Source of the DNA: Streptosporangium becharense
GTDB taxonomy: Bacteria > Actinomycetota > Actinomycetes > Streptosporangiales > Streptosporangiaceae
Length of the DNA stretch: 64,000 nucleotides
Direction: 5' to 3'
Assembly: GCF_014204985.1 (NCBI RefSeq)
Contig: NZ_JACHMP010000001.1
Location: 3,782,001 to 3,846,000 of the forward strand
Below are positions 3,217 through 64,000 of the stretch, in pieces (the stretch's first letter is position 1; each line of letters begins with the position of its first letter). Position numbers and translations under genes: made by a program. A model generated the notes under the pieces. It ran no database searches. It had not been told where the DNA came from and saw nothing but the letters and a program-made list of their open reading frames with translations.

Positions 3217-4088
3217 GGGTCTCCGTGGACGCCATCACGCTCGGCGAGCGGGACCGTACGGACCTCGGCGACCTGGACGAACTCGCGGACTCCATCGCCG
3301 CCGTGGGCCTGCTTCACCCGGTTGTCATCACCGAGGCCCGGGAGCTGGTCGCAGGCGGCCGGCGCCTGGCGGCGGTGCGCCTACTCGACTGGGGCGAGGT
3401 CCCCGTGACGATCGTGGATCTCGCGACGGCGGCCGACGTGCTGAAGGCGGAGGCCGACGAGAACACCTGCCGCAAGCCGCTCACGCCGTACGAGGCCAGC
3501 CGGGCACGTGAGCGGCGAGCGCGAGTGCTGGCGCCGAAGGCGGAAGGGCGCAAGGCGCATGGACAGACGGCACCAGGCAGGCCCAACGCTTCCCCCAGGT
3601 TGGGGGAAGCGTCCCGAAAGGCACGCGAGACGAGCAAGGTCGCTGCGATCGGCACCGGCTACTCGGGCTCGACGCTCGACAAGGTGGACCGGATCCGTGA
3701 TGTCGCCGAGCGCGGCGTCGTCCGTCAGGGCAGGACCGAGGTTCCCGTTCCCGAGCCGGTGCGCGAGGTCGCCCGCCAGGCACTCGGCGAGGTGAAGGTC
3801 ACCGGGGCCGCCGTGGAACCGGCCTCCCGGAAGGTGGACCAAGCCCTGGCCGAGTACGTCCAGGGGTCGGCCGACGTGCAGGCCGCGCGGCTGCGCAAGG
3901 AGACGTTCCGCCTGATCGTCCAGCTCAACGACGGCCTGCCCAAGCTCGACGCCGCCCGCGTGGCCGAGCTGTGCGACGAGGACATGTGGACGGCCATCAC
4001 CGCGGCGCACGACCGCCTGGCGGCGTGGACACGGGACGTCGGCGAACGACGCGGGCCGGGCCTGCGCGTGATCAAGGGGGAGAAGTGA
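3213..4088 (+). CDS. ParB/Spo0J N-terminal-domain protein
   Basis: Residues 1-90 match the ParB-like nuclease/CTPase fold: 'DLDELADSIAAVGLLHPVVI', then 'LVAGGRRLAAVRLLDW' and 'ADENTCRKPLTPYE'. A basic linker and a probable HTH-like segment ('TGYSGSTLDKVDRIRDVAERG') follow. In phages such proteins act as DNA-binding regulators or partition factors; no ParA partner is visible, so a regulatory or replication role is more likely. It ends in a GTGA overlap with the next gene. Confidence 0.85.
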   Translation: MRVSVDAITLGERDRTDLGDLDELADSIAAVGLLHPVVITEARELVAGGRRLAAVRLLDWGEVPVTIVDLATAADVLKAEADENTCRKPLTPYEASRARERRARVLAPKAEGRKAHGQTAPGRPNASPRLGEASRKARETSKVAAIGTGYSGSTLDKVDRIRDVAERGVVRQGRTEVPVPEPVREVARQALGEVKVTGAAVEPASRKVDQALAEYVQGSADVQAARLRKETFRLIVQLNDGLPKLDAARVAELCDEDMWTAITAAHDRLAAWTRDVGERRGPGLRVIKGEK

Positions 4089-4627
4089 GTGACATCTACC
4101 GGATGCTCTCGCCGGAAGAACGCGCCGAGTACGACGCGCTGCTCCACGAGGCCGGATACGACGACAACGGCGAGCAGCGACCGGCGCACGAGATCAAGGA
4201 GCGGATGCACAGGCTGCTCCAGGACGCCGTCCAGGCCCATCGGACCTGGGCCGGTTACGTCCTCGACGCCGACGTCCGCGAGGGTCATCACAGGCGGTTC
4301 AAAGGATGGGACCGAGCCCGCCAGGTGGTGAGCACCCGCCACGGCGGACGGGTGGTCAAGCGCTCGGCCGTCATGTCCCTGCGCCGACGCGATCCCGACA
4401 ACGGCCGGACCTACTGGCAGGGGACGTTCTACCCCGACATGACGCGCGAGGACCTGCTGGATGTGATCAACGGCTCCGAGGTCCGGATCGGCTCCGAGCG
4501 CATCACGATCGCGACGGCCCGTCGGCTCGTGGCCCTCCTGGACGAGACCGGCGCGGCCACGGTCGCCGAGGCGCTGGAGGCGCGCGGCGTGGAGCTGGAG
4601 ACCTACCTGCTGGAGGAGAGCGCCTGA
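4085..4627 (+). CDS. Hypothetical early phage protein
   Basis: The family is not recognised. The 180-residue charged, mostly helical protein starts at a GTG overlapping the ParB-domain stop, and its stop overlaps the next ATG (TGATG). Its position between the ParB-domain gene and the replication-initiator-like gene suggests a replication accessory role; this is context only. Confidence 0.7.
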   Translation: MSDIYRMLSPEERAEYDALLHEAGYDDNGEQRPAHEIKERMHRLLQDAVQAHRTWAGYVLDADVREGHHRRFKGWDRARQVVSTRHGGRVVKRSAVMSLRRRDPDNGRTYWQGTFYPDMTREDLLDVINGSEVRIGSERITIATARRLVALLDETGAATVAEALEARGVELETYLLEESA

Positions 4628-5601
4628 TGCCGCGTATCCGAAGTGTCAAGCCTGAGTTCTGGTCGGACCGCAAGCTCGCTCGGCAGCACTCCCGTGACGC
4701 CCGTCTGTTGTACATCGCGCTGTGGAACCAGGCCGACGAGCACGGCCGTGTGCTCGGCGATCCGCGGTGGATCAAGGGCGCGTGCCTGCCGTATGACGAC
4801 GACATTGACGAGAAGGCGATCGAGAGGCTTCTCGGCGAGCTGGCCGCGTCCGGGCGCGTCCGGCCCTATGTCGTCGATGACGACCCGTACCTGTTCCTGC
4901 CGAAGCTGGCCAACCACCAGCGGCTCGAAGCGGCCAAGGTCCCGAGCCGGCTGCCCGCACCGCCGCCCGCGATAGCCGGTCCCGAGGATCCTCCGCCCGG
5001 TGGCGCGCACCTGTCCGAGCCGGATGCGGGCGAGTCAGCGCCGCGCGCAGACGAGTCCGCGCGGGACTCCGACGAGTCAGCGCTTTCTTATGTGGCAGGT
5101 AGCAGGGGGCATGTAGCAGGTGGCAGGAAGCAGGGTTCTCCGGTTACCGCCGTAGGCGGTCTTACGCGCCGTAACGCGCGCACGCGCGAGAGGGCGCCTG
5201 CGGCGCAACCGGAAGACCTCCTCGCTCGCCGGGTGATTCGCGCCATCCCGCGCTACCGGGCCGCGCCCGGCTGGGTCCGCAAGCACCTCGCCGCCCTGGC
5301 CCGCGATGCCCTGGGCGCCGGGTACGGCTCCGGGGCGCTGACCCGCTATGCCCGGATGGTCATCGAGGAGGAACGCTTCCTCGGCCACCAGCACATCCCA
5401 GAACTGCGCGCCGCGCTCCGGCGTCTGGAGCTGGACGTCCGCCTGGGCGACGCCTGCCCCTGCTGCGGCCAGGAGCCCGACGACTGCCCGGCGGCGTCGG
5501 CCACCGACGACCGGCCGTGGACCGAGCAGGACCAGGCCGCCTGGGAACGCACCTTGGCTCACCTGGGCGCCGACCCCGACGAGCTGGCCAGGGGGGCGTG
5601 A
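4627..5601 (+). CDS. Phage replication initiator-like (replisome organiser type) protein
   Basis: The opening 'MPRIRSVKPEFWSD' followed by 'ARLLYIALWNQADEHGRV' is the typical start of winged-helix phage replication organisers (DnaT/ORF39-like group). After ~110 residues comes a low-complexity Ser/Asp/Glu linker (about 120-180), then a helical C-terminal domain and a CPCCGQ knuckle near residue 285. It would load or organise the host replisome on phage DNA. A replicative-helicase loader is not visible nearby. Confidence 0.7.
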   Translation: MPRIRSVKPEFWSDRKLARQHSRDARLLYIALWNQADEHGRVLGDPRWIKGACLPYDDDIDEKAIERLLGELAASGRVRPYVVDDDPYLFLPKLANHQRLEAAKVPSRLPAPPPAIAGPEDPPPGGAHLSEPDAGESAPRADESARDSDESALSYVAGSRGHVAGGRKQGSPVTAVGGLTRRNARTRERAPAAQPEDLLARRVIRAIPRYRAAPGWVRKHLAALARDALGAGYGSGALTRYARMVIEEERFLGHQHIPELRAALRRLELDVRLGDACPCCGQEPDDCPAASATDDRPWTEQDQAAWERTLAHLGADPDELARGA

Positions 5602-7472: not shown

Positions 7473-7957
7473 CGGCCCCGCTGCTCATCATCACCGTGAA
7501 GGGCACTCCCGCCGGACAGGGCAACCTGAAGACCGGCGCCCACGGCAAGAGCTACCACGCCAACGGCGGCGAGCTGCGGAACTGGCGGGAACGCATCCGC
7601 GGGGCCGCCCTCGACGCCCTCGGCCGCCACGAATGGGTCGGCCTCGGCCGCACCACGCCGTGCCTGCAATGCGACGTCGTCCGCAAGCGGCACGCCGAGC
7701 TGCTCGGCCCGGTCCGGCTGGAGACCGTCGCCACCGTGGCCAAGCCGCGAACCGCGACCGCCGAGTGGCCGATCACCCGGTCCTCCTCGGACTGGGACCA
7801 CTATGCCCGAGCGATCGGCGACGCCCTGACCGGCGTGGTCTACGCCGACGACTCCCAGGTGATCGACGGCCGCCTGATCAAATCCTTCCCGCACGTCCAC
7901 GAGCACGCGCTGGGCGAGCCCGGCGCCGTCATCCGCGTCTGGGGGGTGGGCACATGA
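7469..7957 (+). CDS. RusA-like Holliday-junction resolvase
   Basis: RusA enzymes cleave four-way junctions produced by phage recombination. The 162-residue length is slightly over the typical ~120-140. The key signature is 'DWDHYARAIGDALTGVVYAD' followed by DSQV: Asp-rich metal ligands with G-V-x-x-D-D. The N-terminal 'VKGTPAGQGNLK' is typical of the family. It complements YqaJ and RecT at the start of the window. Confidence 0.88.
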   Translation: MTAPLLIITVKGTPAGQGNLKTGAHGKSYHANGGELRNWRERIRGAALDALGRHEWVGLGRTTPCLQCDVVRKRHAELLGPVRLETVATVAKPRTATAEWPITRSSSDWDHYARAIGDALTGVVYADDSQVIDGRLIKSFPHVHEHALGEPGAVIRVWGVGT

Positions 7958-50417: not shown

Positions 50418-50743
50418 TTCGTACAACCTCCTCTGGAGGGATCCTGTGGCTGAACCCGTCGGCGCGGGCTTCTGCAAGCGTGGGGTCGTGAACGGCTGTG
50501 CGTCCATCCTCACACCGCGGGGCGACCATGAAAGGTCGTTCCACCGGTGCAAGGACGATTCTCAAGAGCACCACCCCGCAGCGTCGAGACGAACCGTTCG
50601 CCGACTGTCGGTTCCGGCTGAAGACTGGCTCTGGCTCATATTCCGTGATCGTCATGAACTGGCCTCGAAGGGATTGAGGGCTCCGTCGATGGGCTGAAGG
50701 CCCGTGGGTGCTCTCTGGTGTAACCAGGTTTGTTTGATCTGGA
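50418..50743. other. Intergenic stretch without supported gene
   Basis: The open frames here are short and lack start signals. Nothing is recognised except the presumed promoter zone of the Nudix gene. Confidence 0.4.
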
Positions 50744-51181
50744 ATGCTGGTAGGCGTGTTTAGTGACGGTGTGCTGAATGTGGTGGCGGCGGCTGTTATC
50801 GATCAGGGACGCCTGCTCGTCGTGAGCAAGAAGGTGGCGCCGGACGTGTTCTACCTTCCCGGGGGCAAGCCGGAGACAGGGGAGAACCCGCAGGAGACCC
50901 TGGTCCGGGAGCTGAACGAGGAGCTCGGCGTCGCGCCGCGCGATATGGGCCTGCTCGGCCAGGTCGAGGACATGGCAGTGCTTGAGGGGGTGCCGATGCG
51001 CATGACGGTTTTCACGGTCAGACTGGCCGGACGCCCACGGCCCGCCGCCGAGCTTGCCGCTCTCGGATGGACCGACGGGCGTGACAGCTATGAATCTCGC
51101 CTGGCCCCAGCGGTTCGCAACCAGGTGCTTCCCCTGCTCGTCCGGGCAGGAGCTCTCGTTCTCGACGATCACGGAATGTGA
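50744..51181 (+). CDS. Nudix hydrolase
   Basis: The 145-residue protein has a complete Nudix box, 'GGKPETGENPQETLVRELNE' then E-L-G, for hydrolysis of nucleoside-diphosphate-linked compounds. The start may be ATG 50744 or GTG 50756. It lies beside a tRNA scar and an integrase remnant. Confidence 0.87.
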   Translation: MLVGVFSDGVLNVVAAAVIDQGRLLVVSKKVAPDVFYLPGGKPETGENPQETLVRELNEELGVAPRDMGLLGQVEDMAVLEGVPMRMTVFTVRLAGRPRPAAELAALGWTDGRDSYESRLAPAVRNQVLPLLVRAGALVLDDHGM

Positions 51182-51390
51182 GCCAGAGCCACGATCGAGT
51201 CGGAATCGACGCCGACGTCGCGCATAAGCGGTATGGACACGCGGGCATGCCGTTCGGTCGTGGTGACCCGCGTGTGGCCGAGCACATACTGGATGATCCG
51301 GGTGCTTACCCCCTCCTCGATGAGGAGCGTCGCGACGGTGGGCTGGGCACCGTGGACCGCCGCTGAACTTTTCCACGGTCGTGAGCCGGA
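51169..51390 (-). pseudogene. C-terminal remnant of a tyrosine recombinase
   Basis: On the minus strand the frame reads 'TVATLLIEEGVSTRIIQYVL' then G-H-T-R-V-T-T-T-E-R-H: the last catalytic His box and flank of an integrase. The Arg-His-x-x-Arg box and everything upstream are missing. It ends overlapping the Nudix gene. It is a scar of an earlier element near the tRNA-Ser site. Confidence 0.7.
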
Positions 51391-57828: not shown

Positions 57829-57901
57829 GCGGCCGTAGCTCAATGGATAGAGCATCTGACTACGGATCAGAAGGTTAGGGGTTCGAGTCCTCTCGGCCGC
57901 G
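57829..57901 (+). tRNA. tRNA-Arg(ACG)
   Basis: 73 bases with complete cloverleaf: acceptor GCGGCCG/CGGCCGC, D-arm AGCTCAATGGATAGAGC, anticodon stem-loop TCTGA-CTACGGA-TCAGA (ACG 57862-57864), T-arm with GGTTCGAGTCC, discriminator G. CCA is not encoded. Confidence 0.97.
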
Positions 57902-57908
57902 CAGATGT

Positions 57909-57951
57909 AAGAAGGCCCTTGAACAGGCGATACGCCGTTCAGGGCCTTCTT
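57909..57951 (+). terminator. tRNA-Arg / integrase terminator
   Basis: AAGAAGGCCCT(T)GAAC and GTTCAGGGCCTTCTT form a 15-bp stem with one bulge. It stops the tRNA, and on the other strand the integrase. Confidence 0.85.
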
Positions 57952-57962
57952 GCTTTTGGTAC

Positions 57963-59173
57963 TCAACCGGTCTCTTCCCCGCCTTTGGGAGCCATCCTGG
58001 GAGCCACGGGCTTCTGTCGTCCCAGCAGAGCTCCCGAGATCGCCGCCGTCGCGGCGCGCTTGTCGCCCTCCATCAGGTGCCCGTAGACGTCCTTGGTGAT
58101 CGAGATGCTCGCGTGCCCGAGGACGTCGGAGACCACGTGCAGCGGCGTGCCCTGGGCGAGCATGAGCGAGGCGCCGGAGTGGCGGAGCTCGTGCGGGTGC
58201 CAGTGGCCGAGGCCGGCCCTCTGCGCCAGCTTGGAGAACAGGTGCGAGAAGGTGTCGGGGTCGGACGGATTGCCGGAAGACGTGGGGAAGATCAGCCCGT
58301 GCTCGGCCCACTCCTGTCCGGCCTGGAGACGCTCGGCGTTGTGCAGGGCCCGGTGCCGCCGAAGCGCGTCGACCAGCTCGGACGTCAGGCACAGCGTCCG
58401 GCGTGACTTGCGGGTCTTCAGCTCGGAGATGACGAGCTTGGTCCTGCGGCCGGCGTCGACGTCGCGGTTCTTGACCCGCTTCACCGCATGCGTCACGCGC
58501 AGGGTGCGGGCGTCGGGATCGAAGGCGCTCCACATCAGCCCGAGCGCCTCACCGCGGCGAAGCCCGAAGACCAGGGAGAGCAGGACGAGCGCCCCCATCC
58601 GGTGCTCGGCGACCGCGTCGAGGAGCTGCCGGGACTGGTCGACGGTGAGCGTGCGGCCCTCGTCGGTGTTGATCCGGGGAGGCATCGACAGCGCCGCGAC
58701 GTTGCGCGCCACCAGGCCCTCACGCTCGGCCTGCCCCAGCGCCTTGCGGAGCACCGCCCGCATGATCCGGACGCTGTTGGGCTTGTACGTCGCCCGCTTG
58801 GCCTGCCAGAGCGCGTCGACGTGGGCCACGGTCAGCGCGGTGAGTTTGTGCCGCCCGAGCCCCGGCTTGAGGTGCAGCCGCACCGTGTCTTCGTAGTCGT
58901 CCAAGGTCGAGTCGGCGACGTGCCCGGGGAGCGTGGACAGCCACCGGTCGAGGAACGCCCCCACGGTGATCTTGTCGTCGGGGACCGGCAGCCTTTGGTG
59001 ATGCCCTCGCGGAGCTTCCGGATCTTCTCGACGACCTCGGCCCGCGTCTTGCCGGAGACCTTCTTGCGGACGCGTTCCCCGTTGGGCCCGTACCCGAGGG
59101 AGATGGCCCCGCGCCACCGGTCGCCGTCCTTGTAGATGGAGTCTTCGTTCTGGCCGCGCCTTTTCGTGCTCAT
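57963..59173 (-). pseudogene. Tyrosine integrase with a single-base frameshift
   Basis: From ATG 59173 the frame is a normal integrase N-terminus ('GERVRKKVSGKTRAEVVEKI') up to about residue 60 ('LREGITKG'), then it shifts; the rest continues in another frame ('LPVPDDKITVGAFLDRWLST') to 57963. One extra C near 58991-58995 would join them. The catalytic domain is intact: 'FGLRRGEALGL', 'HELRHSGASLML', 'LGHASISITKDVYGH'. It sits next to tRNA-Arg, its expected target. It may be a true mutation or an assembly error. Confidence 0.85.
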
Positions 59174-59364
59174 GCCGCGTTCTCCTCTTCCAAATGGGTG
59201 ACGAACTCGACGAGCGCGGTCCGGGGAATCCTGCGGAGACCACCGACGCGAACCGAACGGAGAGCACCCGACCTCATGAGCGCATAGACCTTTGTTCGGC
59301 CAATGCCGAGCAACTCGGCCGCCTTCTCGGGCCGGAGAAGCAAGGGATCGAGGTCACCGGTCAT
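59170..59364 (-). CDS. Excisionase-type HTH protein (left module)
   Basis: The 64-residue protein has 'LLRPEKAAELLGIGRTKVYA' and 'RVGGLRRIPRTALVEFV', the MerR/HTH_17 pattern of Xis. Its stop overlaps the integrase ATG (ATGA). A longer in-frame extension upstream is a shadow of the opposite integrase. Confidence 0.85.
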   Translation of the reverse strand: MTGDLDPLLLRPEKAAELLGIGRTKVYALMRSGALRSVRVGGLRRIPRTALVEFVTHLEEENAA

Positions 59365-59458
59365 GCGGCCGCCAACGCTGGCGAGCGACCCTCCTCGCCC
59401 TACAGGAGAAAGCGACCGGACGGGATCCTTCGGCGACTTCATCTCTGGGAGCGGCTGC

Positions 59459-59713
59459 ATGACCAAGATGACCGGGAAAGAACCCGCCCCGCTACTTCCT
59501 GAGATTGCCCGCGGTCGGCTGCTGACCGTCGAAGAAGTCGCGGAGCGGTTGAACACCACGACCCGTTTCCCCCGCCGCCTGATCGAGGAACGCCGGATCG
59601 CCTTCGTTCGCATCGGGCGCAACGTCCGCACCCCCGAAGCGGCACTTGAGGCGTTCATCGCAGCGGGACTCGTCGAACCGATCACCATCAACCGAGGTAG
59701 GAGGGCCGCGTGA
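59459..59713 (+). CDS. Excisionase-type HTH protein (right module)
   Basis: The 84-residue protein has 'LLTVEEVAERLNTTTRFPRR' and 'RIAFVRIGRNVRTPEAALEA', again Xis-like HTH_17. It diverges from the left module by a 94-base gap that must hold both promoters. The stop overlaps the integrase start. Confidence 0.83.
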   Translation: MTKMTGKEPAPLLPEIARGRLLTVEEVAERLNTTTRFPRRLIEERRIAFVRIGRNVRTPEAALEAFIAAGLVEPITINRGRRAA

Positions 59714-60921
59714 TGGCCGAGGCCGCCCTTGCCGCGTCCGAGGAAGGGCCTCGGCGCTCGCGTAAGAGGAAGCCTGCCAAGAGGCGCTTCGGTCGCGTTC
59801 GGCAACTGCCCTCCGGCCGGTGGCAGGCCCGGTACACCGGCCCGGACGGTGTGGACCGCCCGGCCCCGGAGACCTTCGCCACCAAGACGGACGCCGAGGT
59901 CTGGCTGACCAGGAAGGAGGCGGAGATCCTCGATGACGAGTGGATCGATCCGGACGCCGGGAAGATCACGCTTGGTGAGTACGGGCGGGCCTGGATCGAG
60001 GAACGGCCGAACCTCCGGCCCCGCACGGTCGAACTGTACGGCTACCTGCTCCGCGCTCACCTCGTCTCCACCTTCGGCGAGAAGGCGCTGAGCGAGATCA
60101 AGGATCCGCAGGTCCGGCGGTGGCGCAAGAAGCTTCTGGACGCGGGGGTCAGTGAGGTCACCGTGGCCAAGGCGTACCGGTTGTTGAAGGCGGTCCTGAC
60201 CACGGCCGTGGATGACCAGCTCATCAAGCGGAACCCGTGCCGGATCAAGGGTGCCGGTCAGGAGAGGTCGCCGGAACGGCCGGTGCTCACGGTCGCCGAG
60301 GTCTACCGGCTCGCCGACGCGATCGAGCCGCGCTACCGGGCGCTGGTGCTCCTGGCGACGTTCGGCGGTCTGCGCTGGGGTGAGCTGGCCGGCCTCCAGC
60401 GCCGGGACGTCGACCTGGGCGCCGGGACCGTGCGGGTGGAACGTCAGTTGATGCAGATCACCGGTCAGGGGCTTGTCTTCACCGAACCCAAGTCCGCGGC
60501 GGGCAAGCGGACGGTGGTGATCCCCGATCTGATCGTCGAAGATCTGCGGGCGCACGTGAAGGACTTCACCCAGGACGGGGACAAGGGGCTGATCTTCGCG
60601 GGACCGGATGACGGACCGCTGCGCAACACCAACTTCAACCGGCGCGTCTGGGCTCAGGCACTCAGGGACGCCGACCTCCCGAAGATCCACTTTCACGACC
60701 TGCGGCACACCGGGAACACCCTCGCCGCGAACGCCGGGGCGTCGATCCGGGAACTGATGGAGCGCATGGGCCACTCCAGTACGCGGGCGGCGATGATCTA
60801 TCAGCACTCCACCCACGAGCGGCAGCGGGAGGTGGCGAGGAAGCTCGACGGCCTCGCCCGTGGGGCACTCGGGAGGCGATCGGGCACGCAACGGGCACGG
60901 AAGCCGGACGAGGCCGAATAA
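59713..60921 (+). CDS. Tyrosine integrase (right module)
   Basis: The 402-residue recombinase has AP2-like N-terminus ('RQLPSGRWQARYTGPDG'), core-binding helices (80-175) and catalytic boxes 'FGGLRWGELAGL' (Arg), 'HDLRHTGNTLA' (His-Arg), 'MGHSSTRAAMIYQHS' (His and Tyr). ATG 59713 or GTG 59710 start. It ends 60 bases from the tRNA-Ala fragment, the usual int-att arrangement. Confidence 0.94.
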   Translation: MAEAALAASEEGPRRSRKRKPAKRRFGRVRQLPSGRWQARYTGPDGVDRPAPETFATKTDAEVWLTRKEAEILDDEWIDPDAGKITLGEYGRAWIEERPNLRPRTVELYGYLLRAHLVSTFGEKALSEIKDPQVRRWRKKLLDAGVSEVTVAKAYRLLKAVLTTAVDDQLIKRNPCRIKGAGQERSPERPVLTVAEVYRLADAIEPRYRALVLLATFGGLRWGELAGLQRRDVDLGAGTVRVERQLMQITGQGLVFTEPKSAAGKRTVVIPDLIVEDLRAHVKDFTQDGDKGLIFAGPDDGPLRNTNFNRRVWAQALRDADLPKIHFHDLRHTGNTLAANAGASIRELMERMGHSSTRAAMIYQHSTHERQREVARKLDGLARGALGRRSGTQRARKPDEAE

Positions 60922-60980: not shown

Positions 60981-61024
60981 GGTGGAGCCTAGGAGATTCG
61001 AACTCCTGACATCCTGCTTGCAAA
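60981..61024 (-). other. Detached 3' part of tRNA-Ala(TGC): attachment site
   Basis: On the minus strand TTTGCAAGCAGG, T-arm AGGAGTTCGAATCTCCT and acceptor end AGGCTCCACC match the 3' half of tRNA-Ala(TGC). The 5' half is not to the right. By the same reasoning as at 49,941, element-type DNA should lie to the right of it, although the nearest integrase is on the left. Confidence 0.8.
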
Positions 61025-61182
61025 TCGGTCTGATCTTGGGCTGTACGGGGCCTGAGCTGGGCAGCGGGCTCCCCGCGAGGGACCGTGACTGACCCCTGTT
61101 GACCGCCCTTAATGGCCCGCTAATGGCCCGACGATCAGCCCCATGACCTGGTCTTCCCCACGCGGCGCGCACACCCCGCCCG

Positions 61183-61335
61183 CCTGATCATCCCGTCTGC
61201 CGTCGACCCGCCCGAAGGGGAAGCGGGCCGGGGTCGCGGGGCCAAGGTGGAGCGCCCCACCGGACGAACGACCTTGGCCCCGCGACCCCGGTCTGCTCGG
61301 CTTGTCCCGGGTCGATGGCAGACGGGATGATCAGG
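61183..61335. repeat. 153-bp near-palindromic element
   Basis: Outer arms of 28 bases (61183-61210, 61308-61335; one mismatch) and inner arms of 21 bases (61228-61248, 61271-61291; perfect) surround a 22-base loop. It codes for nothing evident. It could be a MITE-like element, a fossil of IS ends, or a very strong hairpin of regulatory use. Confidence 0.85.
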
Positions 61336-61434
61336 CCCCTACCTCAGCCACCTACGGACCGCGCGAAGAAGCCCGCGATCATCCCGGAGCCGGAGCGCCC
61401 CCGCCGGAGGCATTCCCTGTGAACCTGATCTACG

Positions 61435-61833: not shown

Positions 61834-62292
61834 GGCGTTGTCTGATGGTCTGTGCATGAACTGGGTGCTCTACGCGCTCTGCGGCCCGTGCGCGTCGCGC
61901 GCGAGAACGGCCCCCAGGCCGCACGCGCAGCGTGCAGGCGTGCGCGGGCCGCAGAGCGGCGCGCAGCGCCGCCCTTGATACCCATGAGATTAATTCGGCA
62001 ACTGCTTGGCAACATGACAAGCCGACTATCCCCTTTTCAGGCGGAGCAATCATCCTGTTCGGCTGATCGATGCCTTGGTCAAGCGTGTGCCGCCAGTGGC
62101 ATGGAGGCGTCGGCGTGTAGGGACATTGTTGTCACCCCAGTTATAGTCACCCAGTGCTGGGGCCCGAAGGAGTCCTCAACGTCGATCGCCCCAGCTAGAG
62201 ACGGCAAGCACCAAAGTGAGCGATCGTCATCCTGGACCGAGCGGTCATCTCCTCGTCAGACAGGCGTCGTTTGGAGCACCCTCATACAGGAG
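61834..62292. other. Gap without supported gene
   Basis: GC-rich first part (61860-61980) with many CGCG tracts and then lower-GC DNA. No gene is recognised. Confidence 0.4.
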
Positions 62293-63120
62293 TTACACGG
62301 TCCCTTCTTTACCTTCGTGAGGCTGGTCGAGCTGTTGCTGACGCTTGCGTTGCTCGACCCGCAATAGCTCAATTTCCTTAGAAAGCTTGTAAAGATTTTT
62401 GCTTTCATTGGGATCCTCATAGGGAGGAATCCCCAACTCAAATGCAGCCATATTTTGTTCGATGGCGTCCGCCGTCTGCTGCAGATAGAAGCTGCGTTCT
62501 CGATATTTGAAATATCCCGTAAACCCGGCCGAGACTCCCACTGCAAAGCTGAGTGCGACCGTTATCCACTTATAGGGAGCGGGAGTGTCGGCAAGGCTTG
62601 CAGCCGTTGTGGTTCCTAGCGAACCAACTATGATAATCGCCTGAAAGATGTTATGAATGCGACGATAATACTTTGCCTCATCGCGCAGTTGCGTCAACTC
62701 GCGCGGTATATCTTCCTTATACGCGTACTGTCGTTGATAAACAGGCAATCCAAGGTGCGACGCCGAGAGCCGGCGCGCCTCTTCGGCTAACTCAAGGTCG
62801 AGCTGAAGTCTGCGTACCGTTTTACTCTCGTTTCCGGTTCTCTCTGACTCCAGGTAAGCGAGCCTCAGAAATAGAGCGCCAGATAAAACGGTTAAGGGGA
62901 TTGCTACGCGATTGATTGGACCCATATCGAAAATGTCCCAGGTTGATACTGTGGCAATAAAGATAGCCACACTTCCAACCGACACTATTGCAGCCGAAAA
63001 GAAAAGGGATCTTTTCTGGATTTTTCGAACCCGTATTGCCTCTTGCAGGGCGAGAATTTTCGCGTTGTGGGCCAATAGCTGAGCTTGTGGACCTGCTCCG
63101 ATGTTCGCAATCTCGGACAA
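62293..63120 (-). CDS. SLATT-type (DUF4231-like) membrane protein, low GC
   Basis: The 275-residue protein has two pairs of membrane helices (40-60, 68-88; 160-180, 188-208) and after each helical segments. The C-terminal 'FKYRERSFYLQQTADAIEQN' is close to the SLATT family pattern of 2TM effectors tied to nucleotide-signalling defence systems. The start is TTG 63120, just after an in-frame stop, with AAGGCGG upstream. GC is well below neighbours, so it is probably recently acquired. No cyclase or SMODS gene is beside it. Confidence 0.7.
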   Translation of the reverse strand: MSEIANIGAGPQAQLLAHNAKILALQEAIRVRKIQKRSLFFSAAIVSVGSVAIFIATVSTWDIFDMGPINRVAIPLTVLSGALFLRLAYLESERTGNESKTVRRLQLDLELAEEARRLSASHLGLPVYQRQYAYKEDIPRELTQLRDEAKYYRRIHNIFQAIIIVGSLGTTTAASLADTPAPYKWITVALSFAVGVSAGFTGYFKYRERSFYLQQTADAIEQNMAAFELGIPPYEDPNESKNLYKLSKEIELLRVEQRKRQQQLDQPHEGKEGTV

Positions 63121-63456: not shown

Positions 63457-64000
63457 GTGGCTACCAATGAGGAGCAGACGCGTTGGATCGTGCACGGTGA
63501 GCGGCTGATCTACGACAACGAGTGGATCCGGCTCGGGCTCGTGGACGTGGAGATCCCGGACGGGGAGCGGTTCGAGCACCACGCGGTTCATCTGGGGCGG
63601 GCGGCCATGACGGTGCTGGTCGATGATGAGAACCGGGTGCTGATGATGTGGCGGCACCGGTTCCTGTTCGACCGGTGGGGCTGGGAGTTGCCCGGTGGGC
63701 TGGTCGAGGTGGGTGAGGATCCGAAGGACACCGCCGCTCGTGAGGTGGAGGAGGAGACCGGGTACCGCCCCAGGGAGATGGAGCACCTGATCACCTTCCA
63801 GCCGATGGTGGGCATGGTTGACTCCGAGCACCTCGTGTTTCTCGGCAGAGGGGCCGAACTGGTGGGGGAACCGGTCGGGGAGGTTGAGGCCGATCGGCTG
63901 GAGTGGATCCCGATGGCCGAGATTCCCGACATGATCGCCCGCGGGGATGTGTGGAACTCCGGGGTGCTGGTCGGGTTGCTGTACGCGCGAGAGCGGCTCA
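63457..64000 (+). CDS. Nudix hydrolase, 3' end cut by window
   Basis: From GTG 63457 the frame stays open to the right edge (181 codons). The Nudix box 'GGLVEVGEDPKDTAAREVEE' then E-T-G is complete, with 'WGWELPGG' before it. ADP-ribose pyrophosphatase-like layout ('YDNEWIRLGLVDVEIPDG', 'FEHHAVHL'). The gene continues outside the window. Confidence 0.92.
   Translation, partial: MATNEEQTRWIVHGERLIYDNEWIRLGLVDVEIPDGERFEHHAVHLGRAAMTVLVDDENRVLMMWRHRFLFDRWGWELPGGLVEVGEDPKDTAAREVEEETGYRPREMEHLITFQPMVGMVDSEHLVFLGRGAELVGEPVGEVEADRLEWIPMAEIPDMIARGDVWNSGVLVGLLYARERL

Follow-up and report, generated by a model that had tools for sequence, protein, structure and literature searches.

What is the long palindrome at positions 61182-61336 of the window (the whole 64,000-nucleotide stretch of the Streptosporangium becharense genome analyzed here, G000:C1:3782001-3846000), and what could it do there? 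The initial annotation described a 153-bp near-perfect palindrome made of arm pairs of 28 and 21 bases with almost no mismatch. The palindrome is real and lies where it was placed, but its extent is 155 nt. There are indeed two nested arm pairs, and they measure 29 nt (97% complementary) for the outer and 36 nt (83%) for the inner one (61222-61257 / 61262-61297), which contains an exact core of 21 nt and the 23 pairs that adjoin the apex (61225-61247 / 61272-61294). Such an arrangement is far beyond chance. The RNA fold of the 221-nt region reached -152.4 kcal/mol (z = -11.6, equaled by 0 of 200 shuffles), and the single-stranded DNA (ssDNA) fold of the 251-nt region gave z = -10.1. As annotated, no plausible ORF runs across the palindrome and no T-run is found at it; moreover, it matched no Rfam family. 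Its parts and the conserved block that follows are:

61182-61210, + strand: outer arm, 5' side, 29 nt, 97% complementary to 61308-61336
61225-61247, + strand: inner stem, 5' arm (23 pairs), inverted repeat with 23 of 23 pairs covarying among relatives
61248-61271, + strand: conserved 24-nt apex, TGGAGCGCCCCACCGGACGAACGA, with invariant alignment columns and its pattern in at least 119 genome stretches
61272-61294, + strand: inner stem, 3' arm, supported by inverted repeat and covariation
61308-61336, + strand: outer arm, 3' side, pairing with 61182-61210
61377-61412, + strand: 3' conserved block (ATCCCGGAG...GCCGGAGGC), with CCGGAGGC enriched in the 3' flank of the copies

The palindrome is located 158 bp inside the left attachment core of a complete-looking pSAM2-type AICE (actinomycete integrative conjugative element), of which the window holds the following parts:

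60981-61024, - strand: attachment core (3' half of tRNA-Ala) at the left AICE end, 44 bp identical to the core at genome 3854611-3854654
60981-64000, + strand: AICE part inside the window, continuing to genome 3854654 with GntR, FtsK/TraB, RepSA and integrase
63457-64000, + strand: start of a NUDIX-domain AICE gene (PF00293, E 3.3e-20 on the whole gene, L020:3458-4018)

The second 44-bp core copy lies within an intact tRNA-Ala at genome 3854611-3854654, and the 11.7 kb between the cores encode DUF4231, NUDIX, HTH, GntR, FtsK/TraB, RepSA (E 6e-105) and tyrosine integrase proteins. The element thus has the tRNA attachment repeats, integrase, RepSA and FtsK-type TraB that mark AICEs, and shares RepSA, TraB, GntR, integrase and tRNA attachment with the AICEs pSAM2 and pMR2. 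In the excised circle, the palindrome would come just past attP and downstream of int, as in pMR2, where the hairpin is found just after int (int ends at 7902; match at 8198-8285 of L009). The suggestion of an attachment arm was close, given the 158 bp to the attachment core, but a free plasmid has the same hairpin (see below). The cargo of the AICE includes a DUF4231 (SLATT-like membrane) protein at 62293-63120; DUF4231 and SLATT-like proteins are known from defense systems. A smaller inverted repeat (20-nt arms, 90%) lies inside the AICE at 61875-61958, and another with 53-nt arms at 81% and a spacing of 498 nt lies outside it at 50607-51210. Directly left of the tRNA-Ala core, at 59303-60921, a second integrase with 52% identity to that of the AICE is encoded together with an excisionase-like HTH protein; this stretch appears to be what remains of another AICE in tandem. 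Further left, 57829-59267 holds tRNA-Arg and then a third integrase (57963-59267, minus strand); the 3' half of this tRNA-Arg did not recur in either the window or L020.

The palindrome belongs to an actinomycete family of more than 100 hairpins. Five copies including that of the window occur in the S. becharense genome; three of the others are accompanied by RepSA and TraB at their loci, and near the fifth (L018) there is just one AICE-like gene. The apex pattern TGGAGCGCNNYACYGNRCGAACGA was found in at least 119 stretches of genome contigs from Streptomyces, Micromonospora, Nonomuraea, Actinomadura, Kribbella, Asanoa and others, which disposes of a chance local inversion with no other copy. 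The palindrome had no match among phage records, and the apex is present in 4 viral contigs. Across 29 diverse copies, all of the 18 invariant alignment columns are within the apex, and the arms next to it may differ wholly in sequence between copies with pairing retained. In the same copies, two-sided compensatory changes were seen at 23 of 23 stem pairs, and the covariation score was 0.706 versus 0.188 in shuffles. The percentage of paired positions among these 29 is inflated, because they were chosen partly for pairing; among the 120 motif matches listed, for which the apex was the sole criterion, 100 have 24 or more of the 30 flanking positions paired. Recent origin or selection had been proposed from the window copy, and these compensatory changes at every stem pair strongly support selection on the paired structure. 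What could not be seen from one sequence is that the apex, not the arms, is conserved among relatives, and that a conserved block follows at 61377-61412.

It is evident that this module has a direction. The GCCGGAGGC block lies about 130 nt 3' of the apex. Of 116 copies, 84 have CCGGAGGC in their 3' flank, usually some 130 nt beyond the apex, and 2 have it in the 5' flank; thus the module extends to about 61412. Moreover, the first 20 stem pairs of 73 distinct copies include 131 G.T versus 10 A.C pairs, counts that are not independent owing to the common ancestry of the copies. Since a G.T pair on one strand corresponds to A.C on its complement, this bias shows that folding is selected on the strand bearing the apex as written. 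A stem-loop selected on one strand, with conserved unpaired bases, is a feature of single-strand origins (sso, minus origins).

One set of 148 genomes was scanned both with a covariance model of the hairpin and for the RepSA family. RepSA was found within 10 kb of 13 of the 19 strong model matches, and in all 13 linked cases it lies downstream, 5.5 to 9.9 kb away, on the strand of the hairpin. By this orientation, the strand whose folding is selected is the rep-coding strand. The other six strong matches have no RepSA on the same stretch, possibly because of contig ends or remnants; small contigs account for some of them, and the L018 remnant for one. The hairpin is therefore carried by rolling-circle replicons, a free plasmid included, in fixed orientation to rep, as known for sso. 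In one genome (G016), two family hairpins on the same strand, separated by 2.2 kb (C1:3817603 and 3819826), lie upstream of a single RepSA.

The free plasmid is NZ_CP107740 of Streptomyces longwoodensis, a 9.9-kb circle whose hairpin has the same apex as the AICE hairpins and scores 80 bits with the covariance model. Its initiator matches Rep_1 (below the curated cut-off) and showed no RepSA match, and its SpdA-like protein is related to SpdA2 of pIJ101 (54% over 102 amino acids). The gene order is Rep_1 initiator, SpdA-like, hairpin, GntR regulator (korA), TraB-like and SpdB, which puts the hairpin 2.7 kb past rep and behind spdA. In pIJ101-type plasmids, spdA lies between rep and the single-strand origin (PMC4170104), so that the hairpin, between spdA and GntR, occupies the known sso place of the related plasmids. 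Strong folding of this gap was also seen in seven further plasmids of the pIJ101-type group. The sso (sti) of pIJ101 and pJV1 resemble the hairpin in this slot after spdA and before GntR korA, in strong folding and in lying on the rep strand; they differ in having the blocks ATCGCGGYAGCAG ... GACGGCGGGGGTACGGCG and no AICE-type apex. In pJV1, four more of the seven plasmids and pIJ101, ATCGCGGYAGCAG and GACGGCGGGGGTACGGCG are present as such or in closely similar form. Neither the apex motif nor the covariance model matched pIJ101 or pJV1, and thus the hairpin has no sequence match to any experimentally proven sso. As sso types differ in sequence, however, similarity to a proven sso defines the type and not the whole kind.

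The remaining two of the seven, L150 and L151, have in the sso slot a large nested hairpin with a different apex (L150:4440-4902 and L151:4570-5023, common apex region AGTTTTCGCGGCCCGTTCAGGGCTCGYGAAAAGT), which is possibly a third sso type. In its outer arms and flanks, the NZ_CP107740 hairpin shows 81-83% identity to that of L150, whereas its apex is of the AICE type. It appears from this combination that the apex cassette was exchanged inside one slot.

A hairpin on the rep strand, different Rep families, the plasmid sso slot and a constant exposed apex are together best read as a single-strand origin. We consider it quite probable, from these comparisons of sequences, that the palindrome is the sso of the pSAM2-type AICE, and the best explanation is a type distinct from the sso of pIJ101 and pJV1. 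After excision of the AICE, RepSA would nick the double-strand origin, and rolling-circle replication would displace the rep-coding (plus) strand as ssDNA. The hairpin would form only once the strand is displaced, with the 24-nt apex exposed at the end of its long stem. The apex would be recognized by a priming factor of the host, either a primase or primosome or RNA polymerase, which would lay the primer of the complementary strand. We infer here that the displaced strand is the rep-coding one, that the hairpin acts in ssDNA and that it primes DNA synthesis. The occurrence of one apex with two Rep families (RepSA and Rep_1) argues for recognition by a factor of the host; by extension from a 2004 study (as cited in PMC4170104), this could plausibly be a primase or primosome.

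The covariation and the G.T wobbles would suit RNA as well as ssDNA, and the initial annotation listed an RNA with a long stem among its options. A structured RNA of the element, such as a regulatory RNA or an incompatibility RNA with control over replication or transfer, is nevertheless improbable, since neither an Rfam match nor a T-run terminator was found, and the place of the hairpin follows the replicon, not one regulated gene, and corresponds to the sso slot in free plasmids; ssDNA is the better fit. A double-strand origin (dso) with Rep nicking within the apex might also be considered, as hairpins are usual at dsos and this one is linked to rep on the same strand. But a dso should follow its own Rep, whereas the same apex goes with RepSA and with a Rep_1 initiator, and the relatives of the Rep_1 plasmid have another apex; the position 2.7 kb past rep, behind spdA, in NZ_CP107740 also speaks against nicking there, and we regard the dso as distinctly improbable.

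All the elements are conjugative with FtsK-type TraB, so that the hairpin might be the transfer locus clt bound by TraB. The known clt loci, however, are short direct repeats recognized by the cognate TraB (PMC4170104; PMC3583192), while selection here acts on a long paired stem. Moreover, a clt should follow its TraB, and the same apex is present in elements whose TraB proteins are very different, which leaves clt a very small chance. Finally, the several dispersed copies in one genome recall a MITE or fused IS ends, both proposed in the initial annotation. Against them, the apex is constant and the arms are completely different between copies, the similarity runs past the palindrome into the fixed 3' block, and the copies sit with the genes of one kind of element, AICE or plasmid. 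Conserved terminal arms are absent, and no target-site duplications were seen; this origin was rejected and its probability is close to nil. Overall, the interpretation in the initial annotation was partly supported.

We found no sso described for AICEs in the open literature, in which AICE papers come without sso and sso papers without AICEs; older papers on pSAM2 replication may mention a minus origin. The nearest known case is sso1 of ICEBs1 in Bacillus subtilis, likewise an sso on an integrative conjugative element with rolling-circle replication after excision (PMC4595007). It was recognized by similarity to the sso of Gram-positive plasmids, and no sequence relation to the AICE apex was found; the function of sso1 was assayed. 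We lean slightly towards the wider proposal that the hairpins constitute a new sso class which AICEs have in common with some free plasmids of actinomycetes. In this class, a 24-nt ssDNA apex on a stem of free sequence would be recognized by the host and the apex cassette exchanged between replicons, possibly with an actinomycete-specific priming route. AICEs carry genes between actinomycetes and must turn ssDNA into double-stranded DNA after excision. The 24-nt apex, constant on a stem that varies freely, should be well suited to tracking down the host factor responsible for priming. The apex may also be of use as a DNA marker of AICEs, including those reduced to remnants, and the hairpin could be used as a part for stabilizing actinomycete vectors.

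Some family members are only half palindromes. Recombination at the apex was considered for them and rejected: one (L054) has an IS110-type insertion and another (L049) starts with the same insert, and the other half palindromes look like decay, sequence gaps or contig ends. In L054 (reverse strand, about 3658-4973), an insert of about 1.3 kb encoding an IS110-type transposase (PF01548, PF02371) splits the apex right after ...ACGAACGA. L049 begins with this insert, and its apex is split at the identical position (about 4974). An IS110-type element may use the hairpin apex as its target.
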